The notes below the pieces were generated by a model. That model was not told where the DNA came from. It did not search any database and was given only the letters and a program-made list of their open reading frames with translations. Shown one piece after another: positions 3,446 through 20,709 of a DNA stretch of 20,709 bases; position 1 is the stretch's first letter; every line of letters begins with the position of its first letter. Made by a program: the position numbers and the translations under genes. The DNA comes from an uncultured Asticcacaulis sp. (GTDB lineage Bacteria > Pseudomonadota > Alphaproteobacteria > Caulobacterales > Caulobacteraceae): positions 1 to 20,709 of the forward strand of contig CAMLPZ010000040.1 of NCBI GenBank assembly GCA_946482045.1, read 5' to 3'.

Positions 3446-4395
3446 AGGTCGAACCCCGCCGATGTCTTGAAGAACCGATCGGTGGCAGCGGCGAACTCAT
3501 CGGACAGTTGTTCGACCAATTCAGCGACCGGCATGACTTCGTGGATCGAGCCGACGCCCTGGCCCGCCGACCAGATGGTCTTCCAGGCCTTGGCGTCGGA
3601 GTTCAGTTCATGCGCCATGTCGATCTTGTGCTTCGGGTCCTTGGCTGCGTTGGGATCGAGGCCATTGTTCACCAGGGACGGCGTCAGGAAGTTGGCGTTG
3701 ATGCCGGAGATCGCGTCCGTATAGGTGATGTCTTTCGCTGTCGTGTCGATCAGCATCTGCTTGTAGGCGGCGTCGGCGCGCGCTTCTTCGGTGGCGATAA
3801 AGCGTGTGCCCATATAGCCGAGGTCGGCGCCGGCCATCAGCGCCGCGGCCACATCCTGGCCGGTCGAAAGGGCCCCCGACAGGATCAGCGTGCCTTTGAA
3901 GAAACTGCGGATTTCGTTGATCAGGGCAAACGGGTGCTGGTTGCCGGCATGACCGCCGGCGCCCGCCGACACCAGGATCAGGCCATCGACGCCGGCCTCC
4001 GCCGCTTTCTGGGCGTGCCGGGCATTGATGATGTCGTGAAAGACGATGCCGCCATAGGAATGGACGGCGTCGACCACGTCCTTGACGGCGCCAAGACTGG
4101 TAATCACCAGAGGCACCTTGTGCGCTACCGTGACCTTCAGATCATCCATAAGCCGCGTATTGGTGCTGTGGACGATCAGGTTGACGCCGTAGGCTGCATC
4201 ATCGGGTCCGCGCGCCGCCTTGATCTGATCCAGCCATTCAACATAGCCGTCCGTGCTGCGCTGGTTCAGCGCGGGGAAGGTGCCGATCATCCCGGCCTTG
4301 CACGTCGCGATGACCAGTTCCGGGCCGGACACCAGGAACATCGGGGCGGCGATGGCGGGAAAACGCAGGTTCTTGCGAAGCGTGGCGGGTATCAT
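3442..4395 (-). CDS. Nitronate monooxygenase (2-nitropropane dioxygenase family), FMN-dependent
   Basis: A 317-residue TIM-barrel flavoprotein that oxidises alkyl nitronates (for example propionate-3-nitronate) to carbonyl compounds and nitrite. The N-terminus MIPATLRKNLRFPAIAAPM, with the AAPM motif, is the usual start of the family. The FMN phosphate-binding motif ILVSAGAGGHAG, with its conserved His, lies in the middle; LSGALSTGQDVAAALMAGAD and MGTRFIATEEA follow, as expected for bacterial class II enzymes. The minus-strand ATG at 4395 is preferred over an in-frame upstream start at 4485 because the family begins here and AGGGA precedes it. A -10-like TATAAC lies at 4425-4420 on the minus strand. 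The true substrate is uncertain, as many homologues are annotated from fold alone. Confidence 0.87.
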   Translation of the reverse strand: MIPATLRKNLRFPAIAAPMFLVSGPELVIATCKAGMIGTFPALNQRSTDGYVEWLDQIKAARGPDDAAYGVNLIVHSTNTRLMDDLKVTVAHKVPLVITSLGAVKDVVDAVHSYGGIVFHDIINARHAQKAAEAGVDGLILVSAGAGGHAGNQHPFALINEIRSFFKGTLILSGALSTGQDVAAALMAGADLGYMGTRFIATEEARADAAYKQMLIDTTAKDITYTDAISGINANFLTPSLVNNGLDPNAAKDPKHKIDMAHELNSDAKAWKTIWSAGQGVGSIHEVMPVAELVEQLSDEFAAATDRFFKTSAGFDL

Positions 4396-8250: not shown

Positions 8251-8526
8251 GTGATGTTTGTCGAAGGTCTGTGGCACGCGCTGAAGGTGGTGTCGGCGGG
8301 GCTATACTGGCTCCTGTTCATCTGCCTGATCTGGGCCGGGTTTGCTCTGATGGGCACGTCGCCGCAATGGGGCTGGGGCAATCTGGCCTTTGTGTTGGCG
8401 CTGTTTGCCGCAAGGGGATACGGCAAGCGTTGGCTGAACGGCGGCGCTTCGTATGTGGCCGGTTGCGGCGTTATCTTCGCCTATCTGGCTTTTGCGGCCA
8501 TCGCTACAGGCTGGCAGAACATTTAG
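8251..8526 (+). CDS. Small three-helix membrane protein, unknown function
   Basis: A 91-residue hydrophobic protein with segments VVSAGLYWLLFICLIWAGFA (about 14-33), WGNLAFVLALFAA (about 41-54) and YVAGCGVIFAYLAFAAIATGW (about 68-88), i.e. three predicted membrane helices. It is rich in Trp and Gly. It starts at GTG 8251 (eight bases after GGAG) or at the adjacent ATG 8254. It diverges from the minus-strand membrane-protein gene across a 95-bp gap, and its stop codon overlaps that of the convergent aminotransferase. The frame is kept open over a strongly hydrophobic sequence and a ribosome-binding site is present, so it is probably real; the function is unknown. Confidence 0.6.
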   Translation: MMFVEGLWHALKVVSAGLYWLLFICLIWAGFALMGTSPQWGWGNLAFVLALFAARGYGKRWLNGGASYVAGCGVIFAYLAFAAIATGWQNI

Positions 8527-9842
8527 GAGGTCTCGGACAAGGCTTCGCGAATCGTTTCGACGATCCGGTCGATCTGCGGCTTTTCGATAATCAGCGGCGG
8601 CGACAGGGCGATAATATCGCCGGTCACCCGAATCAGTACGCCCTTGTCGTAGCAGCGATCAAATACCTCCATGGCGCGCGCGGTCACCGCACCCGCGCGC
8701 GGCTCCAGTTCGATGCCTCCGATCAGACCCAGATTACGGATGTCGATGACGTATTTCGCGTCGCGCAAGCTGTGGACGGCGTCTTGCCAGTAGGGCGCAA
8801 GATCCGCCGCGCGCTGGAACAATCCGTCTTCTGCATAGGTGTCCAAGGTGGCGATGCCGGCGGCGCAGGCCAGCGGGTGGCCGCTATAGGTATAACCGTG
8901 GAACAGCTCGATCGGCGTATCCGAGGTCTGCAGGAAGGTATCGTAAATGCGCGTCGAGCAGGCGACGGCGCCCATGGGGACGGTGGCGTTGGTGATGCCC
9001 TTGGCCATGCAGATCATGTCCGGCCGGACACCGAAATAACCGGCGCCAAAGGCCGCGCCCAGCCGGCCGAAACCGGTGATGACCTCGTCGAAGATCAGCA
9101 GGATATCGTGCTTGTCGCAAAGGGCGCGCAGGCGTTGCAGATAGCCTTTGGGCGGAATGAGCACGCCGGTCGAACCTGCCACCGGCTCAACGATGACGGC
9201 GGCGATGGTCGATGCGTCGTGCAGTGCTACGATCCGTTCCAGGGCGTCGGCGAGATCGGCGCCATGCTCGGGCTCGCCTTTGGCGAACAGGTTGCCGGGG
9301 ACGCCGTGGGTATGGGGCAGGTGATCCACGCCCGTGAGCAGGCTGCCGAAGGTCATGCGATTGCGGACGATGCCGCCGACACTGATACCGCCAAAGCCGG
9401 TGCCATGATAGGCGCGTTCGCGGCCGATCAACCGCGTCTTGGTGCCCTGGCCACGCGCGCGTTGATAGGCCAGCGCAATTTTCAGTGCAGTATCGGCGGC
9501 TTCGGAACCCGAATTGGTGAAGAAGATGCGTTTCAGGTCATAGGGCATCAACTCGGATAGCTTATGCGCGAATTCGAACGCCAGCGGATGCGCCATGTTG
9601 AAGGTCGGCGCGAAGTCCATGACGGTGGCTTGGTGCCGGATCGCCTCGGTGATCTTTTCGCGGCCGTGGCCGGCATTGACGCACCACAGTCCGGCCGTGC
9701 CGTCCAGGATCTCACGCCTGTCGTGCGACGTGTAATACATGCCCTGCGCGCTCGCCAACAGTTTGGGTTTGGCTTTGAAGGCGCGATTGGGCGTGAACGG
9801 CATCCAGAAGCTGTCCAGCGCTTCTCCTGAAGGGGCATGCAT
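8523..9842 (-). CDS. Class III aminotransferase, SpuC-like putrescine/omega-amine:pyruvate transaminase
   Basis: A 439-residue fold-type I PLP enzyme. MPFTPNRAFKAKPKLL and GLWCVNAGHGREKI are characteristic of the omega-amino-acid:pyruvate and putrescine:pyruvate (SpuC) branch. FFTNSGSEAADTALKIA holds the phosphate-binding GS, RAYHGTGFGG follows, IFDEVITGFGR gives the PLP-contacting Asp, and MAKGITNATVPMG has Lys281 as Schiff base. It probably moves an amino group from putrescine or a related diamine to pyruvate, giving an aminoaldehyde for the neighbouring dehydrogenase. Start choice is uncertain: 9842 (MHAPSGEALDSFW) fits family length, while an in-frame ATG at 9893 would add 17 residues; a start at 9917 would overlap the GntR operator and is unlikely. 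It diverges from gntR and shares the palindrome between them. Confidence 0.87.
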   Translation of the reverse strand: MHAPSGEALDSFWMPFTPNRAFKAKPKLLASAQGMYYTSHDRREILDGTAGLWCVNAGHGREKITEAIRHQATVMDFAPTFNMAHPLAFEFAHKLSELMPYDLKRIFFTNSGSEAADTALKIALAYQRARGQGTKTRLIGRERAYHGTGFGGISVGGIVRNRMTFGSLLTGVDHLPHTHGVPGNLFAKGEPEHGADLADALERIVALHDASTIAAVIVEPVAGSTGVLIPPKGYLQRLRALCDKHDILLIFDEVITGFGRLGAAFGAGYFGVRPDMICMAKGITNATVPMGAVACSTRIYDTFLQTSDTPIELFHGYTYSGHPLACAAGIATLDTYAEDGLFQRAADLAPYWQDAVHSLRDAKYVIDIRNLGLIGGIELEPRAGAVTARAMEVFDRCYDKGVLIRVTGDIIALSPPLIIEKPQIDRIVETIREALSETS

Positions 9843-9906: not shown

Positions 9907-9920
9907 ATTGTGATCACAAT
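9907..9920. promoter_or_regulatory. Putative GntR operator, copy 1 (aminotransferase/gntR divergent region)
   Basis: The perfect 14-bp palindrome ATTGTGATCACAAT lies midway between the divergent aminotransferase and gntR genes. The identical 14 bases recur before the aldehyde dehydrogenase, and a partial copy before the second binding protein. Short perfect palindromes of this kind are the usual operators of GntR/FCD dimers, so the site probably gives autoregulation and control of the aminotransferase. Confidence 0.75.
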
Positions 9921-9957
9921 GCTGGGCGAACTTCAAGGGCAAGGCCAGTAACCGCGT

Positions 9958-10668
9958 ATGAAAGTCGTCACTCTCGAACCGTCGGTCGCCGACGCACGTA
10001 CTCACGCTCAAGTCTATGACGCCTTGAGCGAAGACCTGATCCAGGGGCAAATACCACCGCTGATGTCGGTATCGCTTCGCACACTGGCGCAACGGTACGG
10101 CGTGTCACCCATGCCGGTGCGCGAAGCCGTCCGTCGGCTCATCGCCGAGAAGGCGCTGGAGCTTCAGCCGGAGAACAAGCGCCTGCGCGTGCCGCACCTG
10201 ACTGAGCATCGGCTGCTGCAACTGATGAAGGCTCGGCAGTGGGTCGAATCGGAACTGGCCTTTCAGGCGACGCGGTTTGTCGATGCCGACCTGATTGCCC
10301 GTTTGAAGCGCGACGACGACACGCTGATGAAGGCGCTGGCGACCGGTGACGTGACGACCTACATGCAGGCCAATCACGACTTCCATTTCTGCATCTATGC
10401 CCGCGCAGATGCTGACCTGCTGTACGACATGGCGCGGACGCTTTGGCTTCAAGCCGGACCGTTCATGCGTGTGGTCTTCGCCCGCATGGGGACTGTGCAT
10501 CTGCCCAAGGATCACCACCAGGACATGATCGCGGCCTTCGAGCGCGGCGATGCCGAAGCTGTGCGAGCATCCATGGCGGCCGATGTCCACGAAGGCATGG
10601 AACTGATGCTTGACGCGCTTCGCAGCCAGGCCGAGCCGGAAAAGAAGCGGCGTAGGGTGGGGAAGTAG
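9958..10668 (+). CDS. GntR-family regulator, FadR/FCD subfamily; probable polyamine-catabolism regulator
   Basis: A 236-residue transcription factor. An N-terminal winged helix-turn-helix spans about residues 15-80, with SLRTLAQRYGVSPMPVREAV as the recognition motif. An all-helical FCD effector domain follows: NHDFHFCIYARA carries the conserved D-x-x-x-H, and HHQDMIAAFERGD and the VHEGM histidine complete the metal or acid-binding site typical of the subfamily. The tail is basic (KKRRRVGK). It sits between polyamine-type genes and next to an exact ATTGTGATCACAAT palindrome that recurs in front of the catabolic operon, so it is probably their repressor, released by a carboxylate or amino-acid intermediate; the ligand is unknown. 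The ribosome-binding site is weak (AAGG 13 bases upstream). This differs from the XRE-type PuuR that controls putrescine genes in E. coli. Confidence 0.88.
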   Translation: MKVVTLEPSVADARTHAQVYDALSEDLIQGQIPPLMSVSLRTLAQRYGVSPMPVREAVRRLIAEKALELQPENKRLRVPHLTEHRLLQLMKARQWVESELAFQATRFVDADLIARLKRDDDTLMKALATGDVTTYMQANHDFHFCIYARADADLLYDMARTLWLQAGPFMRVVFARMGTVHLPKDHHQDMIAAFERGDAEAVRASMAADVHEGMELMLDALRSQAEPEKKRRRVGK

Positions 10669-10690
10669 CATAAACTCCCTGTGAGCGTGC

Positions 10691-10720
10691 TTGACTTGGG
10701 CGATGGCGGCGGTGTCTAAT
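10691..10720 (+). promoter_or_regulatory. Sigma-70-type promoter of the aldehyde dehydrogenase operon
   Basis: TTGACT at 10691-10696 and TCTAAT at 10715-10720 each match five of six consensus bases, with an 18-bp spacer. Transcription would start near 10727, inside the palindrome that begins at 10719. The start codon follows at 10753. Confidence 0.6.
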
Positions 10721-10732
10721 TGTGATCACAAT
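10719..10732. promoter_or_regulatory. Putative GntR operator, copy 2 (aldehyde dehydrogenase operon)
   Basis: An exact second copy of ATTGTGATCACAAT. It overlaps the last two bases of the -10 box and covers the expected transcription start, the classic position for repression by steric block. It lies 20 bp before the aldehyde dehydrogenase ATG. Confidence 0.78.
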
Positions 10733-10752
10733 CCGCTAGCCAAGGTGTCAGC

Positions 10753-12273
10753 ATGTCCGTATCCGCGCCCCAAAGTCCCGCCGATACATTGGAGGGCGTG
10801 CTCAAAGCCATCAAGGGCCTAAGCCTGCCGTCCAAGGCCATTATCGATGGGCAAGAGGTCGCTGCGCGCTCGGGCCGGACCTTCGACAATATGTCGTCGC
10901 GCGACGGCACGAAGATCAATGCCATTGCAGCGCTCGACATGACCGATATCGACATCGCCGTGGCATCGGCAAGGGCAGCGTTCGAGGACGGCCGCTGGCG
11001 CAACCTGGCGCCCAAGGCCAAGAAGAAGATCCTACACAGGCTGGCCGACCTGATGAGCGCGCACGCCGAAAACCTGGCCCTGCTGGAGAGCCTCGACACC
11101 GGCAAGCCGATACGCGACGCGCGCAGTGTCGATATCCCGCTGGCCATCCAGTCGACCGGCTACTACGCCGAAGCGCTCGACAAGATCTATGGAGAGGTCG
11201 CGCCGACGCCGGAAGACCGTCTGTCCTACGTCCTGCATGAGCCCTTGGGCGTCATCGGCGCCATCGTGCCGTGGAACTTCCCCCTGCACATGGCGATGTG
11301 GAAGGTCGCGCCGGCGCTCGCCATGGGCAATTCGGTGGTGTTGAAACCCGCCGAAAACTCGAGCATGACCGCGCTCTATACGGCGCAGCTGGCGCTGGAG
11401 GCCGGCCTGCCGCCGGGCGTGTGGAACGTCGTCACCGGGCTCGGCACCGAGGCCGGTGACGCCCTGGCCCGCCACATGGACGTCGACATGATCGCCTTTA
11501 CCGGCTCGGGTCCGGTCGGGCGGATGCTGATGCGCGCTTCGGCCGATTCGAACCTCAAGCGCGTGTCGCTGGAACTGGGCGGAAAGAGCCCGCAGATCGT
11601 CTTTGCCGACAGCGACGACCTTGATGCCGCCGCCGCCAACGCCGCCTGGGGCGTCTTCTATAACCAGGGCCAGGTCTGCACCGCCGCGTCCCGTTTGCTG
11701 GTCGAAGAGCCGATCAAGGACGATTTCGTCAAACGCGTCGCCGCTGTCGCCAAGACGATCAAGGTCGGCGATCCGTTCGATCCCGCGACCCAGTTCGGCG
11801 CCATGATCTCGTCGCGCCAGATGCACACGGCCCTGGAATATATCGAGCGCGGCCAGGCCGAGGGCGGCCGGCTTGTCATGGGGGGCAAGCAGGTGCGCGC
11901 CGAGACCGGTGGTTTCTACGTCGAACCGTCTCTGCTCGACAATATCGACCCAGCAAACATCCTGGCCCAGGAAGAGGTCTTCGGGCCTGTCCTGTCGGTT
12001 ATGACCTTCAAGGACGAGGCGGAGGCCTACAGGATTGCCAACGACACCATCTACGGCCTGGCCTCGGGCATTTGGACGTCGAACATCAACAAGGCGATGC
12101 GCGCCACCAAGGCGTTGAAGGCCGGGCTGGTATGGGTCAATGGCTGGGATGCGTGCGACATCACTTCGCCGTTCGGCGGCGTGAAACAGTCGGGCTTCGG
12201 TCGCGACCGCTCGCTGCACGCCCTATATAAGTATGCCGACCTCAAGGCCGTTTCGATCAGCTTCAAGGCATAA
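10753..12273 (+). CDS. Aldehyde dehydrogenase, PuuC-like (aminoaldehyde oxidation)
   Basis: A 506-residue NAD(P)-dependent aldehyde dehydrogenase. VPWNFPLHMAMWKVAPALA is the N-terminal cofactor-binding stretch, FTGSGPVG the nucleotide turn, LELGGKSPQIVF gives general base Glu274, and NQGQVCTAASRL catalytic Cys309; PFGGVKQSGFGRD is the usual C-terminal motif. It most resembles the PuuC/gamma-glutamyl-gamma-aminobutyraldehyde and 4-aminobutyraldehyde dehydrogenases, and the neighbours support this: it would oxidise the aldehyde made by a diamine transaminase to GABA or its gamma-glutamyl form. AAGG lies seven bases before the ATG. It heads an operon with a 1-bp gap to the next dehydrogenase, under the promoter and GntR palindrome just upstream. 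Substrate is inferred. Confidence 0.88.
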   Translation: MSVSAPQSPADTLEGVLKAIKGLSLPSKAIIDGQEVAARSGRTFDNMSSRDGTKINAIAALDMTDIDIAVASARAAFEDGRWRNLAPKAKKKILHRLADLMSAHAENLALLESLDTGKPIRDARSVDIPLAIQSTGYYAEALDKIYGEVAPTPEDRLSYVLHEPLGVIGAIVPWNFPLHMAMWKVAPALAMGNSVVLKPAENSSMTALYTAQLALEAGLPPGVWNVVTGLGTEAGDALARHMDVDMIAFTGSGPVGRMLMRASADSNLKRVSLELGGKSPQIVFADSDDLDAAAANAAWGVFYNQGQVCTAASRLLVEEPIKDDFVKRVAAVAKTIKVGDPFDPATQFGAMISSRQMHTALEYIERGQAEGGRLVMGGKQVRAETGGFYVEPSLLDNIDPANILAQEEVFGPVLSVMTFKDEAEAYRIANDTIYGLASGIWTSNINKAMRATKALKAGLVWVNGWDACDITSPFGGVKQSGFGRDRSLHALYKYADLKAVSISFKA

Positions 12274-12274
12274 G

Positions 12275-13717
12275 ATGAAACTCACAACCACTCAGGTGTC
12301 GCTGCTGGGCGAGACCATTTCGCTCGAATCCAAACCTGGCTGGTTTGCTGTCACGAACCCAGCCGATGGCGGTGTCCTGGCCTATGTCAGGGATGGCTCG
12401 GCTGCTGACACCACGGCGGCTATCGTTGCCGCTGATCAGGCCTTTGCGGCGTGGTCGGGCATGACCGCCAAGGCGCGTTCGATAATTCTAAAAAAATGGA
12501 ATGATCTGGTTCTCGCCAATCTCGAAGACCTGGCGCTGTTGGTGACGCTTGAGCAGGGGCGGCCGATCAAGGAGACGCGCGGCGAAGTCGCCTATGGTGC
12601 ATCGTTCATCGAATGGTTCGCCGAAGAGGCCAAGCGCGCCTATGGCCGCACCATTCCGGCGACGGCGCCTGGCAAGCACCTGCAGACCATCAAGCAGGCG
12701 GTCGGCGTCTGCGCGGCGATTACGCCGTGGAACTTCCCGATCTCGATGATTACGCGCAAGGTATCGCCAGCCCTGGCGGCCGGTTGCACAGTCGTCATAA
12801 AGCCGTCGGAAGAGACGCCGCTGTCGGCCCTGGCGCTTTATGTGCTGGCGCGCAAGGCCGGCCTGCCGGACGGCGTCATCAACATCGTCAATTCGACGAC
12901 GGCCAAGGCGATCGGCGAGGTCATGACCTCGGACCCACGGGTCAAGAAGCTGAGCTTCACCGGCTCGACGCCGGTCGGCAAGCTACTCTACGCCCAGTGC
13001 GCCCCGACCATGAAGAAGATATCGATGGAACTGGGTGGCAATGCACCTTTCCTGGTGTTCGACGACGCCGACATTGAAGAAGCCGTCGAAGGCGCTTTGG
13101 CGTCGAAATACCGCAATACCGGCCAGACCTGCGTCTGCGCCAACCGGCTGCTGGTCCAGTCTGGCATCTATGACAGCTTCGCGGCCCGCCTGACCGAGCG
13201 TGTCAAGGCGATGAAGCTCGAGGCCGGCTGGAACGAGAGCGCGCAATTGGGACCACTGATCAACCAGAAGGCCGTCGATAAGGTCAAGGGCCTGGTCGAT
13301 GACGCGGTCAGCAAGGGTGCGCAGGTCGAGGTCGGCGGTCATGTTTCGGGCCTGTTTTATGAAGGAACGGTGCTGACCGGCGTGACCCACGACATGGAGA
13401 TTTTCGACACCGAAATCTTCGGACCGGTGGCGCCGCTCTTCCGTTTCGAGACGGAAGAGGAGGGGATTGCACTGGCTAACGATACGCCGTTTGGCCTGGC
13501 GGCCTATGCCTATACGCGCGATATCGGCCGCGCCATGCGGGTCGCGGCGAAGCTTGAGTACGGCATGGTCGGCATGAATGACGGCCTGATCTCGACTGAG
13601 GTGACGCCGTTCGGCGGCGTCAAGGAATCGGGCCTTGGCCGCGAAGGCGCTGCCGAAGGTCTGGATGAGTATCTGAATATCAAATACATTTCCTATGGTG
13701 GGCTGGGGGCGATTTGA
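12275..13717 (+). CDS. gabD: Succinate-semialdehyde dehydrogenase, GabD-like
   Basis: A 480-residue aldehyde dehydrogenase of GabD length. It would oxidise succinate semialdehyde to succinate, the last step of GABA catabolism before the TCA cycle. TPWNFPISMITRKVSPALAA and FTGSTPVGKLL are the GabD forms of the cofactor-binding motifs; MELGGNAPFLVFDDAD contains general base Glu252 and NTGQTCVCANRLLV the catalytic Cys286. The doublet C-V-C in the active-site loop is typical of GabD and separates it from the PuuC-like dehydrogenase upstream. The ATG at 12275 follows the previous stop codon by one base, so the two are translationally linked; an in-frame ATG at 12233 would overlap the upstream gene and has no family support. 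Confidence 0.9.
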   Translation: MKLTTTQVSLLGETISLESKPGWFAVTNPADGGVLAYVRDGSAADTTAAIVAADQAFAAWSGMTAKARSIILKKWNDLVLANLEDLALLVTLEQGRPIKETRGEVAYGASFIEWFAEEAKRAYGRTIPATAPGKHLQTIKQAVGVCAAITPWNFPISMITRKVSPALAAGCTVVIKPSEETPLSALALYVLARKAGLPDGVINIVNSTTAKAIGEVMTSDPRVKKLSFTGSTPVGKLLYAQCAPTMKKISMELGGNAPFLVFDDADIEEAVEGALASKYRNTGQTCVCANRLLVQSGIYDSFAARLTERVKAMKLEAGWNESAQLGPLINQKAVDKVKGLVDDAVSKGAQVEVGGHVSGLFYEGTVLTGVTHDMEIFDTEIFGPVAPLFRFETEEEGIALANDTPFGLAAYAYTRDIGRAMRVAAKLEYGMVGMNDGLISTEVTPFGGVKESGLGREGAAEGLDEYLNIKYISYGGLGAI

Positions 13718-13728
13718 TCATCGACAGC

Positions 13729-13866
13729 AAAGGCCCCCACCACCATTTGCTCCGCAAATGGTCCCCCTCCCCAGCAAGCTGGGGAGGTATAAGATGGACC
13801 TTTTCTATACCTCCCCAGCTTGCTGGGGAGGGGGACCGCGCCGAAGGCGAGATGGTGGGGGCCTTT
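13729..13866. repeat. 138-bp nested-palindrome (REP/MITE-like) element inside the catabolic operon
   Basis: Outer arms AAAGGCCCCCACCA (13729-13742) and TGGTGGGGGCCTTT (13853-13866) are exact inverted repeats. Inside, 13760-13791 and 13806-13837 are a second, perfect 32-bp inverted repeat, and each of these contains its own CTCCCCAGC..GCTGGGGAG hairpin. Two unrelated side hairpins sit at the junctions: CCATTTGC-TCC-GCAAATGG (13743-13761) and CGCC-GAA-GGCG (13839-13849). The whole is a two-unit REP-like structure that could form a cruciform or a long mRNA hairpin. No target-site duplication and no transposase are visible. Its right end lies two bases before the start codon of the next gene. Confidence 0.85.
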
Positions 13867-13868
13867 CT

Positions 13869-15209
13869 ATGACCACACTCCAATCCTTCATTTCCGAACA
13901 ACGTGAATTGTTTGCCGTCGCCAATCCTATTTCAAGAGCCTTGTCACAAAAGGCTTCGGCGTGGCGTGGTGGGGTGCCCATGCATTGGATGCGCGATTGG
14001 GCAACTCCATTTCCGATATATGTGAACAATGCCAAGGCCGCGACCCTGACCGATGTCGATGGTCACGCCTATGACGATTTCTGCCTCGGCGACACGCCAT
14101 CGATGTTCGGCCATGCCCGCGCCGAGCTTCAGGCCGCCATCGCCAGACAGGCGGGCGAAGGCGTCGGCTTCATGCTGCCGACGGAACTCGCCAATGAGGT
14201 TGGGGACCTCTTGCAACAGCGCTTCGGCCTCCCGCAATGGCAGGTGGCCACCACCGCATCGGATGCCAATCGCGCCGCCATCCGCTGGGCGCGCGGCATC
14301 ACCAAACGCGACAGGATCCTCGTCTTCGATGGCTGTTACCACGGCATGGTCGACGACTGTTTCGTCGCCCTCTATGACGGCCAGCCCGCCAACAGAAAAG
14401 GCCTGATCGGCCAGGTCCGCGATCAGACCGAAACCACGGTCGTTGTCCCGTTCAACGACATCGCCGCGCTTGAAACCGTGTTGTCAAAGGGCGATATCGC
14501 CGCCGTTCTGGCCGAGCCGGTGATGACCAACTTTGGCATGATCCTGCCGGAGCCAGGCTTTCACAAGGCCTTGCGGGAGTTGACCGCGCAATATGGCACG
14601 CTGCTGATCCTCGATGAGACCCACACCCTGTCCTCCGGCCCGGCAGGCTATATCGGCGCGCACGGCTTGCAGCCCGATATCGTCACCTGCGGCAAGGCAA
14701 TCGCCGGCGGCATCCCCGCCGCCGTTTGGGGCGTCACCGCTGACGTCGCCGCGCGGATGGACGCGACGCAAAAAGAGGTCGGCCCAGGCCAGTCGGGCAT
14801 AGGTACGACGCTGTCCGGCAATGCCCTGGTCATGGCGGCGATCAAATGCATGCTGACCGAGGTCATGACCGACGCGGCCTATGCCCACATGTTGGCTGGC
14901 ACCGACGAATTGGTGCACGGTTTGCGCGACCTGATCGACCGCCACGCCCTGCCGTGGAGTGTCGTCCACGTCGGCGCTCGCGCCGAGTTGATCTTCGCGC
15001 CCCAGCCTCCGCGCGATGCTGCCGGCATGCGGCCCTATCTTGACCACGACCTGCTGGAAGCCTTCCACATCTTCCTGATCAACCGGGGCGTATTAATTGC
15101 ACCCTTCCACAATATGATGCTTATTTCGCCGCAAACCGGGGCGGACGCTACCCAGCGCCTGATCTCGGCGGTCGAGGCCTTCGTGCCCCACTATAAGGAC
15201 TTCCAATGA
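13869..15209 (+). CDS. Class III aminotransferase, glutamate-1-semialdehyde-aminomutase-like, substrate unknown
   Basis: A 446-residue PLP enzyme of the GSA/class III fold. LGDTPSMFGHA, TTASDANRAAIRWAR (phosphate-binding region), DGCYHGMVDD, LLILDETHTLSSGPAG (PLP-contacting Asp) and VTCGKAIAGGIPAAVWG with Schiff-base Lys276 are all present. Its HTLSSGPAG and GQSGIGTTLSGN motifs follow the GSA pattern, not SpuC or GabT, and its place between gabD and the puuA-like gene implies catabolism rather than haem synthesis. It may transaminate GABA, a gamma-glutamylated amine or another diamine product; this is inference. The ATG at 13869 fits the expected N-terminus, but an in-frame ATG at 13794 inside the repeat has a better ribosome-binding site (GGAGG, six bases away) and would add 25 residues. 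The stop codon overlaps the next start (ATGA). Confidence 0.8.
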   Translation: MTTLQSFISEQRELFAVANPISRALSQKASAWRGGVPMHWMRDWATPFPIYVNNAKAATLTDVDGHAYDDFCLGDTPSMFGHARAELQAAIARQAGEGVGFMLPTELANEVGDLLQQRFGLPQWQVATTASDANRAAIRWARGITKRDRILVFDGCYHGMVDDCFVALYDGQPANRKGLIGQVRDQTETTVVVPFNDIAALETVLSKGDIAAVLAEPVMTNFGMILPEPGFHKALRELTAQYGTLLILDETHTLSSGPAGYIGAHGLQPDIVTCGKAIAGGIPAAVWGVTADVAARMDATQKEVGPGQSGIGTTLSGNALVMAAIKCMLTEVMTDAAYAHMLAGTDELVHGLRDLIDRHALPWSVVHVGARAELIFAPQPPRDAAGMRPYLDHDLLEAFHIFLINRGVLIAPFHNMMLISPQTGADATQRLISAVEAFVPHYKDFQ

Positions 15210-16600
15210 GCCTGCCCCCGCACCCCATGGTTGCCACGCCTGACGAGGCCAAGGCCTTTCTCGACGCCCATCCGCACATCAACTATTTCGAGATCCTGTT
15301 CACGTCGATGACAGGCGTGCCGCGTGGCAAACGCCTGCGCCGTCACGAGCTTTTACCCATCTATGAGTATGGCCGCTTCCTGCCGGGTTCGATCCTGGTT
15401 GTTGATACGTTGGGCGCGGATTGCGAAGAGACGGGGCTGGTCTGGGAAGACGGCGACGCCGATCGCGTGGCGCGGCCGGTACCGGGGACGCTGGTGCCCG
15501 CGCCGTGGCTGGGCGACGATGTCGGCCAGGTCATGCTGTCGATCTATGAGCTGGATGGCACGCCCAACGATCTCGATCCGCGCCATGTGCTGCAAGGCGT
15601 GCTCGATCGCTATAAGGCCGATGGCCTGACGCCGGTCGTGGCCTGCGAACTGGAATATTATCTGGTTGATATCGAGCGCGGCGAGGGCGGCGAACTGAAG
15701 CCGGCACGGACCTTCAATACCGACGAGACACCACGCGGCATCCAGGTCTACGGCTTGCCGGAAATCGAGGCCCACGGCGCCTTCTTCCGCCAGCTATGGG
15801 AGACGGCCGACGCTCAGAACATCCCGCTGGAAGGGGCGATCTCGGAATTCGCGCCGGGCCAGGTCGAACTGACACTCAAGCACAAGGCTGACGCCCTGCG
15901 CGCCGCCGATGACGCCGTGATGTACAAGCGCCTCGCCAAGGGCGTGGCCTTAAGCCTTGGTATCGAAGCGACTTTCATGGCCAAGCCATGGCCCGACCGC
16001 GCCGGTTCGGGCTTCCACGTCCATATCTCGGTCGCGGACAAGGAGGGTAAGAACCTGTGCGCTGCCGACGATCCCTCGGGCTCGCCCTTGCTGCATAACA
16101 TGATCGGCGGCATGAAGGACCACTTGGCCGACTGCATGGGTATTCTCGCGCCCGGCGCAAATTCCTATAAGCGCTTCAAGGCCAATTCATATGCACCCGT
16201 CGGCCTGACCTGGGGCGTCAATAACCGCACGGTCTCCTTGCGCGTCACGGCGGGTCCGGCCCATACGCGCCATGTGGAACACCGTGTCGCGGGGGCGGAC
16301 GGCAATCCCTACCTCGTGCTGGCGGCGATCCTGGCCTGCGCCCACCACGGCATTACGCAGAAAACCGATCCCGGCCCGGCGGTCAGCGGCAACGGCTATG
16401 CGGCGGCGGCCGAAAGCGGCGCCATCCTGCCGACCAACTGGTTCGCGGCCATAGATTACCTCGACAAGTCCAGCGTTCTGCGCGACTATCTGGGGCAGCG
16501 CTTCGTCGATATGTATGTCAAGGTGAAGCGGACCGAGCAGGCCCGCTTTTACGAGGAAGTGACGTCGCTCGACTACGACTGGTACTTGCGCAACGCCTGA
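15206..16600 (+). CDS. Glutamine-synthetase-family enzyme, PuuA-like gamma-glutamylpolyamine synthetase
   Basis: A 464-residue class I GS-fold enzyme. The N-terminal beta-grasp part contains MTGVPRGKRL. The catalytic domain has ELEYYL (Glu148, Glu150), SEFAPGQVEL, GSGFHVHIS (His271, His273), SYKRF and NNRTVSLRV with the conserved Arg, all metal, ATP or glutamate ligands. The sequence and its place in a polyamine operon fit the PuuA/GlnA-like group, which joins glutamate to a primary amine such as putrescine at the cost of ATP. A true nitrogen-assimilation GlnA would have the adenylylation loop and a different context. Amine specificity (putrescine, spermidine, ethanolamine or a monoamine) cannot be read from sequence. 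It overlaps the previous gene by 4 bp and is followed by the binding-protein gene after 7 bp. Confidence 0.85.
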   Translation: MSLPPHPMVATPDEAKAFLDAHPHINYFEILFTSMTGVPRGKRLRRHELLPIYEYGRFLPGSILVVDTLGADCEETGLVWEDGDADRVARPVPGTLVPAPWLGDDVGQVMLSIYELDGTPNDLDPRHVLQGVLDRYKADGLTPVVACELEYYLVDIERGEGGELKPARTFNTDETPRGIQVYGLPEIEAHGAFFRQLWETADAQNIPLEGAISEFAPGQVELTLKHKADALRAADDAVMYKRLAKGVALSLGIEATFMAKPWPDRAGSGFHVHISVADKEGKNLCAADDPSGSPLLHNMIGGMKDHLADCMGILAPGANSYKRFKANSYAPVGLTWGVNNRTVSLRVTAGPAHTRHVEHRVAGADGNPYLVLAAILACAHHGITQKTDPGPAVSGNGYAAAAESGAILPTNWFAAIDYLDKSSVLRDYLGQRFVDMYVKVKRTEQARFYEEVTSLDYDWYLRNA

Positions 16601-16607
16601 GGATAAA

Positions 16608-17666
16608 ATGGTATCGCGGCGATCTTTCTTGGCAGGTACGGGAGCGGTCGCGGCGGGCATTGTGCTGGGACGTGAAGCCAGTGCGGCAACAGCGCCTTTG
16701 CGCTTTTACAACTGGGACACCTATATCGGCGAAAATACCCTGCCGGGCTTCAAGGCGGCGACGGGCATCGACGTCGAGATGAGCCTGTTCGCCACCAACG
16801 ACGAACTCTATGCCCGCACTGCCGGTGGTGGTGAGGCCTATGATGTCATCGTGCCGTCGTGCGACTTCGTTACGCGCATGGTTGAGCAGGGGTTGCTAAC
16901 GAAGCTCGATCACAGCCGCTTGACCAATCTTAAGAATATCGCGGAGCCGTTTCGCGATCCGCTTTACGATCCGGGGTGCGCGTACAGTGTACCGTTTTCC
17001 TGGCTGGTCCTGGGGCTTGGCTATCGCCGCTCAGCCATGAAGCGCAAAAAACCGCCGAAGTCCTGGGAAGACGTCTTTGACTCGAAGCGATATCGCATCG
17101 GCTGGCTGACCGAGCCGTCCGACATGATCCGCATGTGCGCGAGCTTCATCGGCGAGGACCCGAACGCCATTTCGGCCAAGGGGCTGAAGACAATCGAAAA
17201 AATCCTGACGAAACAGGCAAGGCGCGGGGTCATCTTTCATCACGACGAAGGCCAGGACATGCTGCGCGCGGGCGACGTCGATATCGTCATCGAATACAAT
17301 GGCGACATCGCCCAGGTCATGGGAGAGGACCCGGACCTAGGCTTTGTCGTCCCCAATGAGGGCAGCACGCGCTGGGTAGACTGCTGGGCCATCCCTAAGA
17401 ACGCGCGCAATCCGGACGGGGCCCACCAGTTCCTGAATTATATGCTGAGCGCCGAGGCGGGGGTCGATATCTCCAGCACCATCATGTACCCGACGCCGAA
17501 TGCTGCGGCGCGCGCCCTGATGCCGGCGGAATATCGCGACAATCCGGTGATCTTTCCCTCCGAGGCGCAACTGGAAAAGTGTCCGTTCGGGCGTCGCGCG
17601 TCCGCGGCGCAGCAGCAGGCCTTCGACGAAATATTTGCACGCGTACGGATGATCGCAGGCCGCTAG
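16608..17666 (+). CDS. Polyamine ABC transporter substrate-binding protein, PotF-like, Tat-exported (paralogue 1)
   Basis: A 352-residue periplasmic binding protein. MVSRRSFLAGTGAVAAG is a twin-arginine (SRRSFLA) signal, probably cut after ASA at residue 26; there is no lipobox, so the mature protein should be soluble. The PotF/PotD family pattern is clear: RFYNWDTYIGENTLPGF, YDVIVPSCDFV, YSVPFSWLVLGLGYR, IEYNGDIAQVMGEDPDLGFVVP and YPTPNAAARALMP. It would deliver putrescine or spermidine to the inner-membrane permease. The ribosome-binding site GAGGA overlaps the previous stop codon, so it is the last gene of the catabolic operon. Near the conserved ligand-binding Asp it has TRWVDCWAIP where its neighbour has QLNSDCLAIP, so the two proteins may bind different ligands. 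Confidence 0.9.
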   Translation: MVSRRSFLAGTGAVAAGIVLGREASAATAPLRFYNWDTYIGENTLPGFKAATGIDVEMSLFATNDELYARTAGGGEAYDVIVPSCDFVTRMVEQGLLTKLDHSRLTNLKNIAEPFRDPLYDPGCAYSVPFSWLVLGLGYRRSAMKRKKPPKSWEDVFDSKRYRIGWLTEPSDMIRMCASFIGEDPNAISAKGLKTIEKILTKQARRGVIFHHDEGQDMLRAGDVDIVIEYNGDIAQVMGEDPDLGFVVPNEGSTRWVDCWAIPKNARNPDGAHQFLNYMLSAEAGVDISSTIMYPTPNAAARALMPAEYRDNPVIFPSEAQLEKCPFGRRASAAQQQAFDEIFARVRMIAGR

Positions 17667-17723
17667 CGGCGCGCTTTGCGGTGTTTTCGTTGCGCGTTTG
17701 CGAATAGTACCGGATAAGACGGG

Positions 17724-17735
17724 TTGTGATCACGT
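17724..17735. promoter_or_regulatory. Putative GntR operator, degenerate copy 3 (second binding protein)
   Basis: TTGTGATCACGT keeps the core GTGATCAC and the left half of the palindrome seen twice upstream, but differs in the last two bases of the right half (10 of 12 matched against TTGTGATCACAA). It lies in the 164-bp gap before the second binding protein, just upstream of a TTGACA hexamer (17743-17748) that could be a -35 box; no convincing -10 box was found at the right spacing. Confidence 0.5.
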
Positions 17736-17830
17736 TTTGCGATTGACAAGCCGTCAAAGCCGTATTCCTCTTCGTTAACGATTTGTCGCACCGGACATCG
17801 CCGGTCGGGCCCCGCTTAAGGAGACACCTC

Positions 17831-18910
17831 ATGAGCAAGATTGGACGTCGTTCACTTCTGGCTGGCCTCGGCGCCGCGGCCGTGGGCATCAGTTTCGCCG
17901 GCCTGTCCGGCTGTACCAAGCCGGCAGGCAAGGGCGGCAAGACAATCAACTTCTACAACTGGGATACCTATATCGGTGACACCACGCTGTCGGACTTCCA
18001 GACGGCGTCGGGCATCAAGGTCAATATGTCGATCTTCGCCACCAACGACGAACTGTTCGCCAAGATCAAGACCGGTAATTCGGGCTTCGACGTCATCGTG
18101 CCGTCGAACGACTTCGTCACCTACATGTCGCAGGCGGACCTTCTTCTGCCGCTCGACCACGCCAAGATCCCGAACCTCAAGAATGTCGATCCGGCCTTCA
18201 TGGACCCGATCTACGATCCCGGCCGGAAGTTCTCGGTGCCTTACACCTGGCTGGTGCTCGGCATCGGCTACCGCAAATCGGCGATGAAGGGCGGCGCAGT
18301 GCCGGATTCATGGAAGTGGCTGCTTGACTCTCCTGAATACAAAGGCCGCATCGCGCTTCTGTCGGAGTCGGGCGACCTGATGCGTCTCGGCGCCAAATAT
18401 CTCGGTCACAGCGTCAACGGTATCCCTGATGACGTTCTGAAGCAGGTCGAGGCCATGTTGATCAAGCAGAAGCCGAACATAAAAGCCTTCCACAGCGATG
18501 ATGGCCAGGACATGCTGATGTCCAAAGAGGTCGATATCGTCATGGAATATAACGGCGACATCGCCCAGGCCATGAAGGAAGATCCGGACCTGGCTTTCGT
18601 TGTGCCCAAGGAGGGCTCGCAGCTCAATTCCGACTGTCTGGCGATTCCGAAGGACTCGAAGAACCCGGAAGAGGCGCACGCCTTCATCAACTACATTCTC
18701 GATGCCCAGGCCGGCGCCAAGATCTACGAGCAGATTCTGTATCCGACGCCGAACGCCGCCGCCAAAGCGCTGATGCCGGAAGACTACAAGAATAATCCCG
18801 TCATCTTCCCGCCAGCCGATGTCATGGCGAAATGCGAGTATGCGGCCTTTGAAGGCCCTGAGCGCGCGCAGGTCTATGACGCCGCGATGACGCGCATCAA
18901 GGCCTCTTAA
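17831..18910 (+). CDS. Polyamine ABC transporter substrate-binding lipoprotein, PotF-like (paralogue 2)
   Basis: A 359-residue binding protein, clearly a paralogue of the gene before it: FYNWDTYIGDTTLSDF, ATNDELFAKIKTG, VIVPSNDFVTYM, YTWLVLGIGYRKSAM, EYNGDIAQAMKEDPDLAFVVP and YPTPNAAAKALMPEDY match along its length. Its leader MSKIGRRSLLAGLGAAAVG is Tat-like (GRRSLLA) but ends in the lipobox LSGC with Cys28, so it is probably a Tat lipoprotein anchored to a membrane, unlike the soluble paralogue. The ATG at 17831 is chosen from the strong AAGGAG seven bases upstream; an in-frame start at 17783 would bury the signal peptide. It has its own upstream region with a partial GntR operator, and a terminator after it. 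Ligand is probably putrescine or spermidine. Confidence 0.92.
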   Translation: MSKIGRRSLLAGLGAAAVGISFAGLSGCTKPAGKGGKTINFYNWDTYIGDTTLSDFQTASGIKVNMSIFATNDELFAKIKTGNSGFDVIVPSNDFVTYMSQADLLLPLDHAKIPNLKNVDPAFMDPIYDPGRKFSVPYTWLVLGIGYRKSAMKGGAVPDSWKWLLDSPEYKGRIALLSESGDLMRLGAKYLGHSVNGIPDDVLKQVEAMLIKQKPNIKAFHSDDGQDMLMSKEVDIVMEYNGDIAQAMKEDPDLAFVVPKEGSQLNSDCLAIPKDSKNPEEAHAFINYILDAQAGAKIYEQILYPTPNAAAKALMPEDYKNNPVIFPPADVMAKCEYAAFEGPERAQVYDAAMTRIKAS

Positions 18911-18957: not shown

Positions 18958-18983
18958 ACACTTCGGTGGGGTTGGGGACTTCC

Positions 18984-19880
18984 ATGGAACAGAGTTGGCG
19001 TCAGGCCAAAAGCATGTTCGGGGCGATGCTCAGTGCGCCTCTGTTCTGGCTGGTCGTCTTCTTTTTCGTCCCGCTGGCTATCGTCTTCGCCTACAGCTTT
19101 GGGCAGAATGTCGGCCTGATCGATATCTCGGTCTTCACGACGTTCGACAACTACAAGCGCGCCTTCGAGCCGCTGTACCTGGCGATCTTTGTTAAATCGA
19201 TCTGGATCGCGGCGATTACCACCTTCCTGTGCCTGGTGCTGGGCTTTCCCGTCGCCCTGGCCATCACGTTTGCGCCGCCCAAGGCCAAGGCGTGGTTGCT
19301 GCTACTAATCATGCTGCCCTTCTGGACCAATTTGCTTATCCGGACCTATGCGCTGATGGCGTTCTTGCGGACCGAGGGCTATATCAACACGACCTGGCAC
19401 TGGGTCTTCGACGGCATCAATGCGGTTTCCGGCGGCATGCTGGGTGATTTCCGTGCCATGGAGCTGATGAACACCAACTTTGCCGTCGTGCTTGGCCTGG
19501 TCTTCGTCAACCTGCCATTCATGATCCTGCCGCTCTATTCGACGCTCGATCGTATGGACCGGTCGCTGCTTGAGGCGTCGCTGGATCTGGGCGCCGGGCA
19601 TATCTCGACCCTGTTCAATGTCGTGGTGCCGATGGCTGGAGCTGGGATCGCGTCCGGCATCCTGATCACCTTTATTCCGGCGCTGGGTTCCTATCTGACG
19701 CCCGACATGCTGGGCGGGCCGGATTCGCAGATGATCGCCAACGTGATCGAAAGCCAGTTCAAGCGCGCCAATAACTGGCCGTTCGGTGCAGCGCTCAGCT
19801 TCCTGCTGGTCTACATGACGTTCATAGGCATCGCTATCCAGGGCCTGATCGAGCGCAAAAATACGGGGAGGGCGGCATGA
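18984..19880 (+). CDS. potH: Polyamine ABC transporter permease, PotH-like
   Basis: A 298-residue inner-membrane protein with about six membrane helices, the first from LFWLVVFFFVPLAIVFAYSF. The PotB/PotH signature is visible: WTNLLIRTYALMAFLRTEGY, LPFMILPLYSTLDRMDRSLLEA, then the EAA loop EASLDLGAGHISTLFNVVVP that contacts the ATPase, and FIPALGSYLTPDMLGGPDSQMI. It pairs with the next gene as the transmembrane channel for polyamines from the two binding proteins. The ATG at 18984 has GGGGA five bases upstream; a GTG at 18966 in frame adds six unlikely residues and lies in the terminator's tail. The stop codon overlaps the next start (ATGA), a sign of translational coupling. Confidence 0.92.
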   Translation: MEQSWRQAKSMFGAMLSAPLFWLVVFFFVPLAIVFAYSFGQNVGLIDISVFTTFDNYKRAFEPLYLAIFVKSIWIAAITTFLCLVLGFPVALAITFAPPKAKAWLLLLIMLPFWTNLLIRTYALMAFLRTEGYINTTWHWVFDGINAVSGGMLGDFRAMELMNTNFAVVLGLVFVNLPFMILPLYSTLDRMDRSLLEASLDLGAGHISTLFNVVVPMAGAGIASGILITFIPALGSYLTPDMLGGPDSQMIANVIESQFKRANNWPFGAALSFLLVYMTFIGIAIQGLIERKNTGRAA

Positions 19881-20709
19881 GCGAAGCCGTGAAAACCCGC
19901 AAAAGTCCGCCCGGGCCGCTGGAATATCTGCGCCGCTGGCCGCTGCAGGCCTGGCTGGCCCTGGTCGCTTTCTTCCTTTATGCGCCGTTGATCTCTCTGA
20001 TGGTCTTCAGCTTCAACGACTCGCGGTTCACGACCGTGTGGCGCGGCTTTACCTTCCGCTGGTACGAAAAGGCCTTCAAGAATGCCAGCCTGATCGAGGC
20101 TTTCGGCAACTCGCTGACCATTGCGCTTTTGTCGACCATCATTTCGGTCGTCGTCGGCGCCATGGCCGCCATCGTGCTGTGGCGGTTCCGCTTCCCGGGC
20201 AAGACGGCCTTCAATGCCGGCCTGGCCATCCCCATCGTCGTGCCTGAAATCTGCATGGGCGTCGGCATGCTGGTCTTCTTCGCCAAGGTGCTGCCGTGGC
20301 CGCAGGACCTAATCTGGCCGTTAAATCTCGGCGCCATCATCATCGCCCACGTGTCGTTCTCCTTTCCTTTCGTGGCTGTGGTCGTGCGGGCGCGTCTGGC
20401 CAGCTTCAACCGCGAGTTGGAAGAAGCTGCGCGCGATCTTGGAGCATCAGAATTCCGCACCCTGATGGATGTCATTGTTCCGCATATCGCGCCATCGCTG
20501 GTGGCCGGTGCGCTTTTGGCCTTTACCCTCAGCCTCGACGACTTCGTCATCACCTTCTTTACGGCAGGTCCCGACACGGTGACCTTCCCGGTCAAGGTCT
20601 ATTCGATGGTGCGCTTCTCGGTCACACCGGAAGTCAATGCTGCCTCGACCATCCTGATCATCGTCACCGTGCTCCTGACCTTCCTCGCCCTCAGATTCCA
20701 GGGCTCCGA
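19877..20709 (+). CDS. potI: Polyamine ABC transporter permease, PotI-like (3'-truncated by window edge)
   Basis: The frame is open from the ATG at 19877 to the end of the window, 277 codons, without a stop; this is close to the normal PotI length, so only a few residues are missing. After a short charged N-terminus, WLALVAFFLYAPLISLMVFSF is the first helix, and FTFRWYEKAF is a typical PotC/PotI loop. The EAA loop reads ELEEAARDLGASEFRTLMDV, followed by SLDDFVITFF, the usual PotI signature. It would form the heterodimeric channel with PotH. The start overlaps the potH stop by 4 bp. The ATPase (PotG/PotA) that must energise the system is not in the window; it may follow immediately or lie elsewhere. 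Confidence 0.92.
   Translation, partial: MSEAVKTRKSPPGPLEYLRRWPLQAWLALVAFFLYAPLISLMVFSFNDSRFTTVWRGFTFRWYEKAFKNASLIEAFGNSLTIALLSTIISVVVGAMAAIVLWRFRFPGKTAFNAGLAIPIVVPEICMGVGMLVFFAKVLPWPQDLIWPLNLGAIIIAHVSFSFPFVAVVVRARLASFNRELEEAARDLGASEFRTLMDVIVPHIAPSLVAGALLAFTLSLDDFVITFFTAGPDTVTFPVKVYSMVRFSVTPEVNAASTILIIVTVLLTFLALRFQGS

Follow-up and report, generated by a model that had tools for sequence, protein, structure and literature searches.

Several transcription factors with roles in polyamine metabolism have been described, and they fall into different protein families. PuuR of Escherichia coli and PauR of Pseudomonas exert pathway-specific control over the gamma-glutamylation genes for polyamines (PMC9397018). 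PuuR is an XRE-family protein (PMC5320631), in agreement with the first-pass annotation of the DNA presented here, and PauR is placed among the XRE-cupin regulators (PMC7901475). The MocR-type proteins GabR and OapR carry a pyridoxal phosphate (PLP) aminotransferase-like sensor domain; their targets are gabT/gabD, joined in some Comamonadaceae by puuA/puuD (PMC5320631); GabR sites are direct repeats of ATACCA (PMC4494728). CsiR is a GntR-family protein that represses the genes of glutarate catabolism (PMC6265302, PMC6667623). Here we describe a 20,709-nucleotide stretch from an uncultured Asticcacaulis sp. of the Caulobacteraceae (assembly GCA_946482045.1, contig CAMLPZ010000040.1, positions 1 to 20,709; hereafter the window), in which a gene for a GntR/FCD regulator, gntR, is flanked by palindromes and by genes resembling those for polyamine uptake and breakdown. 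Its product has the same two-domain build as the FCD/VanR-group repressors Atu1419 of Agrobacterium and McbR (YncC) of E. coli, and differs in family from PuuR and PauR and in sensor domain from GabR and OapR. The proposed arrangement also resembles that of Atu1419, whose binding sites are short palindromes of identical sequence, located in a divergent region and at an operon close by (PMC7797058). We propose, with a probability of about 0.82, that a dimer of this FCD-GntR protein binds palindromes of the TTGTGATCACAA type and locally controls a regulon for polyamine uptake and catabolism.

A motif scan of the window found two exact copies of the 14-bp palindrome ATTGTGATCACAAT and a degenerate third, GTTGTGATCACGTT, which has 3 mismatches in 14 positions, or 2 in 12 for the inner 17724-17735. 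All three were reported by the first-pass annotation, which also judged the occurrence of the two identical copies, both in promoter regions beside a GntR gene, very unlikely by chance. The window holds five matches with at most three mismatches, compared to a mean of 0.56 in dinucleotide shuffles, and 0 of 100 shuffles got to five. The remaining two 3-mismatch matches (1161 and 1417) lie outside the gene cluster and are probably chance. A repeat finder also puts the three copies together, in family D17 (among 20 families listed of at least 60). Gene identities were taken from Pfam and NCBIfam profile matches, and names such as puuC and puuA mean "like", because the majority of the matches for enzymes and transporters do not reach their equivalog cutoffs. 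Taken mechanically, the longest aptA open reading frame starts at 9917 and would run across part of site 1. Only from residue 34 onward does this frame match the AptA family, so the ATG at 9842 is the likely start, and site 1 therefore falls within the 115-bp divergent intergenic region between this ATG and gntR (9958). Site 2 is located in the gap from the gntR stop (10668) to the puuC ATG (10753). Downstream of site 3, 94 bp separate its end from the likely ATG (17831) of SBP2, the second binding-protein gene. CRP sites have spaced arms, and a CRP/FNR-like site was rejected as a candidate because the TGTGA/TCACA arms abut without a spacer.

The closest named relatives of the window GntR are from Asticcacaulis, with the A. 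solisilvae BE327 protein at 94% identity. One scan of genome contigs yielded 402 loci with GntR relatives, and we used the best 80 of these (40-94% identity), defining a site as a match to the 12-mer TTGTGATCACAA with at most two mismatches. Position-by-position site counts are inflated, because the sites were chosen by similarity. Two loci (L051 and L054) offered too little DNA for the upstream test, leaving 78. Sites were found upstream of gntR in 71 of the 78, at 31-267 bp from the start of the match, and downstream in 76 of 80, at 13-591 bp from its end. The 10-base core TGTGATCACA ranks first of the 1,024 ten-base palindromes on both sides of gntR, occurring upstream in 37/78 loci (next best palindrome, 3) and downstream in 75/80 (next best, 10). 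Among 60 12-mer palindromes of the same composition, the operator 12-mer scores 147, the next 13 and the median 1. In Caulobacter the upstream copy is usually TTGTGATCGCAA. Loci with a flanking site span Asticcacaulis, Caulobacter, Brevundimonas, Phenylobacterium, Hyphomicrobium, Stappia and others; gene order varies between Caulobacterales and Hyphomicrobiales, and the sites beside gntR persist. A puuC operon that lies away from gntR keeps its site, both in A. endophyticus (L167, about 1.17 Mb from gntR) and in UBA2476 (L182, on another contig). A site also precedes the binding-protein gene before potH in 9 of the 14 Asticcacaulis loci that cover this region, with SBP2 orthology confirmed for L003, L005, L007 and L015. 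These counts speak for conservation of the palindrome before the orthologous operons. Some Hyphomicrobium loci additionally carry paired sites, spaced by 77-88 bp, beyond the pot genes as seen from gntR (3889/3976 in L057, 5353/5430 in L067, 4310/4397 in L068 and 4248/4336 in L077).

The palindrome is also sparse in whole genomes. The exact 10-mer core occurs 8, 15, 8, 12, 1, 3, 3 and 2 times in eight genomes (the 15 being those of A. biprosthecium), compared to 1, 0, 0, 0, 0, 0, 0 and 0 for the reversed pattern. In 13 further Asticcacaulis genomes there are 42 exact 12-mers, 1-5 per genome, and the reversed control gave 0 in all 13. Sorting by hand from gene maps, we found that 34 of the 42 precede gntR or polyamine or gamma-aminobutyrate (GABA) genes, seven of them beside gntR and 27 elsewhere. 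These 34 stand before gntR/aptA, before puuC, before a second glutamine synthetase gene with a flavin adenine dinucleotide (FAD) oxidase gene, before gabT, or between puuD and spuC; one further copy precedes another glutamine synthetase gene (L175). Thus the palindrome is not common outside amine genes in these 13 genomes. The first-pass annotation had proposed a three-unit regulon: the three units do carry sites, and the number is an undercount. Relatives add a spuC-like aminotransferase gene, the glutamine synthetase and FAD oxidase pair, and an unlinked gabT, so that in Asticcacaulis the regulon would comprise no fewer than six units, and three of these lie beyond the window.

The gabT gene lies far from gntR. 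A site with at most one mismatch is found 15-64 bp upstream of gabT in 12 of 12 orthologues (E ≤ 1e-120), which come from 12 of 17 Asticcacaulis genomes. Four of the 12 genomes had served to find this target, giving an independent count of 8/8; four weaker, second-best gabT paralogues had no site upstream. A site with at most two mismatches also precedes a gene that encodes Asparaginase_2 and Peptidase_S51 (cyanophycinase-like) domains in 8 of 14 Asticcacaulis matches (L204-L209, L214 and L215, two of these eight having first been found via the site). This site is often TTGCGATCACA, and the gene may be a second-tier target that links arginine-rich storage or dipeptides to polyamines. In seven fetched stretches (L100, L115, L120, L123, L166, L183 and L190) a core site lies beside a gene for a TonB-dependent receptor, assigned in L183 by 51% identity to L166. 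We did not count these receptors as regulon members because they are mostly not orthologous to each other.

The core and the regulator occur together across the family. In a sample of 199 genomes, 57 have exactly one copy of this GntR each at E ≤ 1e-45, and every one of the 57 carries the core (286 sites, 1.12 per Mb), compared to 63 of the 142 genomes without GntR (105 sites, 0.21 per Mb; Mann-Whitney p = 2e-15, uncorrected for kinship, as are all comparisons here). When the 11 "without" genomes that have at least three cores were searched again, nine proved to hold a GntR relative at 28-42% identity. At E ≤ 1e-34, a cutoff chosen after this second search of the exceptions, a GntR relative is found in 19 further genomes, each of which carries the core, giving 76/76 versus 44/123 (core counts summed by hand). 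In six genomes whose GntR has about 40% identity (G080, G087, G092, G103, G116 and G121), the core lies about 6-8 kb from gntR on the same contig.

The Pfam GntR and FCD domains of the protein both score above their gathering cutoffs, which assigns it to the FCD (FadR/VanR) subfamily of the GntR superfamily. Only these two domains were found, with no XRE helix-turn-helix or cupin of the PuuR/PauR kind, and the 236-residue protein has no aminotransferase-like sensor domain of the MocR/GabR kind. The CsiR equivalog NF008576 matches at 36.6 bits against a cutoff of 218; the E. coli CsiR operon includes gabDTP. The AlphaFold model has a mean predicted local distance difference test (pLDDT) score of 91.9, and E. 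coli McbR (4p9f), among the VanR-group FCD regulators, is both its nearest solved fold and its top sequence match. In Atu1419, Arg45 contacts G and His214 is one of the metal ligands (PMC7797058). We mapped these residues by alignment and spacing in a set of 61 proteins. The recognition helix of the window protein starts S-P-M-P, compared to S-R-x-P in four of five aligned solved relatives, and Arg45 of Atu1419 corresponds to Pro51, a position that is Pro in 51/61 proteins and Arg in the seven most distant. The metal ligands Asn139, His143 and His187 are kept. The fourth position, His214 of Atu1419, is Asp209 here and Asp in 54/61 proteins, and is His in six of the remaining, most distant seven. 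By this alignment the protein appears to lack the full set of Asn/Asp and three His found in metal-binding FCD regulators. The predicted operator, TTGT-GATC-ACAA, fits the FadR-subfamily pattern NyGT-Nx-ACNy with TKGT/ACMA boxes. Pro53 and Asn73 map to positions for which published correlations in this subfamily link Pro and Asn to A/T, and not G/C, at the second TKGT base, in line with TTGT here; the trend for Asn is not significant (PMC4494728).

Together, these results support the earlier reading of a palindrome-marked GntR/FCD polyamine regulon. We infer binding of the operator by GntR from the computed sites, their conservation, the adjoining genes and the co-occurrence. In the proposed circuit, the product of gntR (9958-10668) would bind TTGTGATCACAA-type palindromes as a dimer. 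The targets at this locus would be gntR itself with aptA, the puuC-gabD-aminotransferase-puuA-SBP1 operon, and an operon for uptake, SBP2-pot(H,I,G)-puuD. Of the latter, potG and puuD come after potI in relatives, where another operator and spuC are next in line. Further targets, as judged from relatives, would be the spuC-like putrescine aminotransferase gene, the glutamine synthetase and FAD oxidase pair, and unlinked gabT. Such a regulon would serve to take up putrescine and convert it to GABA and succinate by both glutamylated and transaminase routes. GntR would block transcription, including its own, when inducer is absent, and would be released by a polyamine or a breakdown product such as putrescine, a gamma-glutamyl derivative or GABA.

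Several observations weigh against this proposal. The upstream site is missing from 7 of the 78 gntR loci (L011, L046, L063, L069, L073, L074 and L078) and the downstream site from 4 of 80 (L001, L016, L017 and L079). For the first three of these four, a site stands immediately in front of puuC at another place in the genome (L172, L182 and L167, respectively), and the gap in L001 goes with a contig end, the site before puuC being on another contig. The SBP2 site is missing in 5 of 14 Asticcacaulis relatives (L009, L010, L012, L013 and L014), 7 of the 42 exact 12-mers have no adjoining polyamine gene (L163, L166, L169, L179, L183, L185 and L190), and no gabT reaches the cutoff in 5 of 17 Asticcacaulis genomes. 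Two genomes, G036 with seven cores and G137 with three, have no GntR relative at E ≤ 1e-15. A sigma-70 consensus scanner called no promoter in the puuC or SBP2 upstream piece. The base contacts would differ from those of the textbook, because the G-contacting Arg45 of Atu1419 is Pro51 here. In the window and in its relatives, GT and AC are 4 nt apart, compared to the 3 nt, or in some groups 2 nt, that are typical, although not defining, of FadR-subfamily sites, and 4 nt is typical of HutC (PMC4494728). Finally, the polyamine substrates rest on family resemblance, with the PuuC, PuuA and Pot matches all below equivalog cutoffs.

This last point bears on what the regulon is for. The operator could be real and the regulon tuned to another amine, or to GABA or beta-alanine, instead of putrescine, with the polyamine genes included because GABA is their product. 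AptA is named as an omega-aminotransferase and not as a putrescine enzyme, gabT and gabD are both in the regulon, and most of the enzyme assignments are below equivalog cutoffs. However, the cluster also has Pot-type uptake genes, a puuA-like synthetase, a puuD-like hydrolase and a spuC-like aminotransferase, and in 66 of the 80 gntR loci the DNA retrieved includes a glutamine synthetase gene as well as pot-type uptake genes. We consider this alternative unlikely, while giving it appreciable weight.

The position of the operators relative to presumed promoters bears on how GntR would act. In all 18 sequences examined upstream of puuC, a TTGAC starts 25-30 bases ahead of the 12-mer. Because of this distance, operator 2 overlaps the presumed -10/+1 region, which is a repressor position. 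Upstream of SBP2, all 10 sequences examined have a conserved TTGAC beginning 5-7 bases after the 12-mer, with CGTATTC behind it. Operator 3 thus lies just upstream of a presumed -35 element, and activation there is possible. A strongly conserved block, GATTGACA...CCGTATTCCTCT, follows operator 3 in the window (17743-17770) and in Asticcacaulis relatives; it is promoter-like and was not called by the sigma-70 scanner. FadR is a dual regulator, and GntR could likewise be mainly an activator of the uptake operon, or a dual regulator of it, as the conserved TTGAC immediately after the SBP2 operator would allow. Against this stand the puuC operator, which overlaps the presumed -10/+1 in all 18 sequences, and site 1, which lies near gntR as in autorepression. 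We regard a mainly activating or dual role at the uptake operon as improbable; GntR is probably a repressor.

It is also conceivable that another transcription factor binds the palindrome and that gntR is merely one of its targets. The recognition helix without the usual Arg, the spacing unlike that usual in the FadR subfamily and the two genomes with several cores and no GntR relative are all in keeping with such a factor. Nevertheless, the site flanks gntR across several orders despite changing gene order, and the core is present in every genome with GntR at either cutoff and has about one-fifth of that density in genomes without it at E ≤ 1e-45. These observations make a different binding factor quite improbable. 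That the identical palindromes are chance or a dispersed repeat family deserves virtually no credence and is refuted by the genome-wide counts. Short palindromes do recur, and two 3-mismatch copies in the window look like chance, but shuffles never reach the observed count, TGTGATCACA leads the palindrome rankings, and exact 12-mers number 1-5 per genome, mostly before polyamine genes, with controls of 0 in 13/13 genomes.

Our literature searches, which did not extend to most subscription papers or to RegPrecise, where a database-only prediction may exist, returned no paper that we recognized as naming the operator or a GntR/FCD polyamine regulator. The letters of TGTGATCACA appeared in 12 papers. 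In the single one with a bacterial title they are part of a primer, and the other 11 were judged by title alone. No polyamine GntR appears in the available part of PMC5343134, and the available part of a 2022 review of polyamine assimilation describes PuuR with no occurrence of GntR (PMC9397018). The kind of regulator is already known, its job apparently undescribed: the polyamine role, the GT-N4-AC spacing and the altered recognition helix did not come up in this literature. More tentatively, the protein may belong to a class of polyamine-responsive regulators that evolved independently and would be the third after XRE (PuuR/PauR) and MocR (GabR). This class would be a Caulobacterales and Hyphomicrobiales clade of FCD GntR proteins that lost the G-contacting Arg (S-P-M-P), reads TTGT-N4-ACAA, exchanged one His of the metal site for Asp so that the pocket can hold a cationic amine, and governs every step that leads from uptake to succinate, with unlinked gabT and perhaps the cyanophycinase/isoaspartyl peptidase gene among its targets. 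We hold this wider proposal to be possible, at less than even odds.

The predicted operators and genes of the window are collected in Table 1. In NCBIfam, the puuA-like protein is matched best by type III glutamate-ammonia ligase, at 213 bits, and by GGputSyn, at 202 bits; neither match reaches its cutoff. The longest open reading frame of the PRK07046-type aminotransferase runs from 13695 and, taken from there, would read through a perfect 32-nt inverted repeat with a 14-nt loop (GGTCCCCCTCCCCAGC..., 13760-13837); the real start is probably 13869. This repeat fills much of the gap between gabD and the aminotransferase gene. Its 22-nt stem core is present in 2 of 217 fetched loci (L009 and L010), and it may be a repetitive extragenic palindromic (REP)-like element.

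Table 1. Predicted operators and genes of the 20,709-nucleotide window
Feature	Position	Strand	Basis and remarks
Operator 1	9907..9920	.	ATTGTGATCACAAT, exact; aptA/gntR divergent intergenic region
Operator 2	10719..10732	.	ATTGTGATCACAAT, exact; before puuC-gabD-aminotransferase-puuA-SBP1 operon
Operator 3 (degenerate)	17723..17736	.	GTTGTGATCACGTT; before SBP2-potH-potI
aptA, class III omega-aminotransferase, divergent from gntR	8523..9842	-	NF052567 AptA equivalog 750 bits, cutoff 500; start inferred
gntR, GntR helix-turn-helix and FCD regulator, 236 aa, putative operator-binding protein	9958..10668	+	Pfam GntR 8.4e-15, FCD 3.1e-18
puuC-like aldehyde dehydrogenase	10753..12273	+	Best NCBIfam match PuuC 555 bits, below equivalog cutoff 850
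gabD-like succinate-semialdehyde dehydrogenase (SSADH)	12233..13717	+	TIGR01780 SSADH 644.5 bits, cutoff 646.35; start perhaps 12275
Class III aminotransferase, PRK07046 subfamily	13869..15209	+	NF005453 671 bits, cutoff 425; match from residue 57 of longest open reading frame; start inferred
puuA-like glutamine synthetase family protein, gamma-glutamylpolyamine synthetase candidate	15206..16600	+	Gln-synt_C 1.9e-101
SBP1, PotD/PotF-like polyamine-binding protein	16608..17666	+	PotD 162 bits, below equivalog cutoff 582
SBP2, PotF/PotD-like polyamine-binding protein	17831..18910	+	PotF 205 bits, below equivalog cutoff 636; ATG inferred, longest open reading frame from 17783
potH/potB-like permease	18966..19880	+	PotB 224 bits, below cutoff 348
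potI/potC-like permease, cut by window end	19877..20707	+	PotC 248 bits, below cutoff 326

Mobile DNA was searched for the regulator as well. No relative of GntR was found in viral contigs. A plasmid collection gave 860 records that match GntR, all below 60% identity, and two loci were fetched. The Burkholderia locus (L128) has no site within two mismatches. The Pseudosulfitobacter plasmid (L127) also has none within two mismatches; next to its two gntR genes are genes for a glutamine synthetase, an oxidase and a transaminase. Two sites with 3 mismatches of 12, at 3109 and 4134, flank the gntR gene at 3207-3896 on this plasmid. They consist of TTTTGTGAT-type half-sites (regions 3096-3130 and 4121-4155), and this gntR lies between the glutamine synthetase-oxidase pair and the transaminase gene, which is perhaps a diverged version of the same circuit.

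The polyamine regulators that we met in the literature searched are of the XRE or MocR type, and a GntR/FCD regulator of polyamine genes would differ from both. With its defined 12-bp operator, it would give a testable regulon for Caulobacterales and Hyphomicrobiales and could be a source of parts for a polyamine biosensor. The operator would be one whose spacing is unlike that described for the FadR subfamily, and the regulator would tie orphan enzymes, such as AptA, the PRK07046 aminotransferase and the extra glutamine synthetases, to one pathway.

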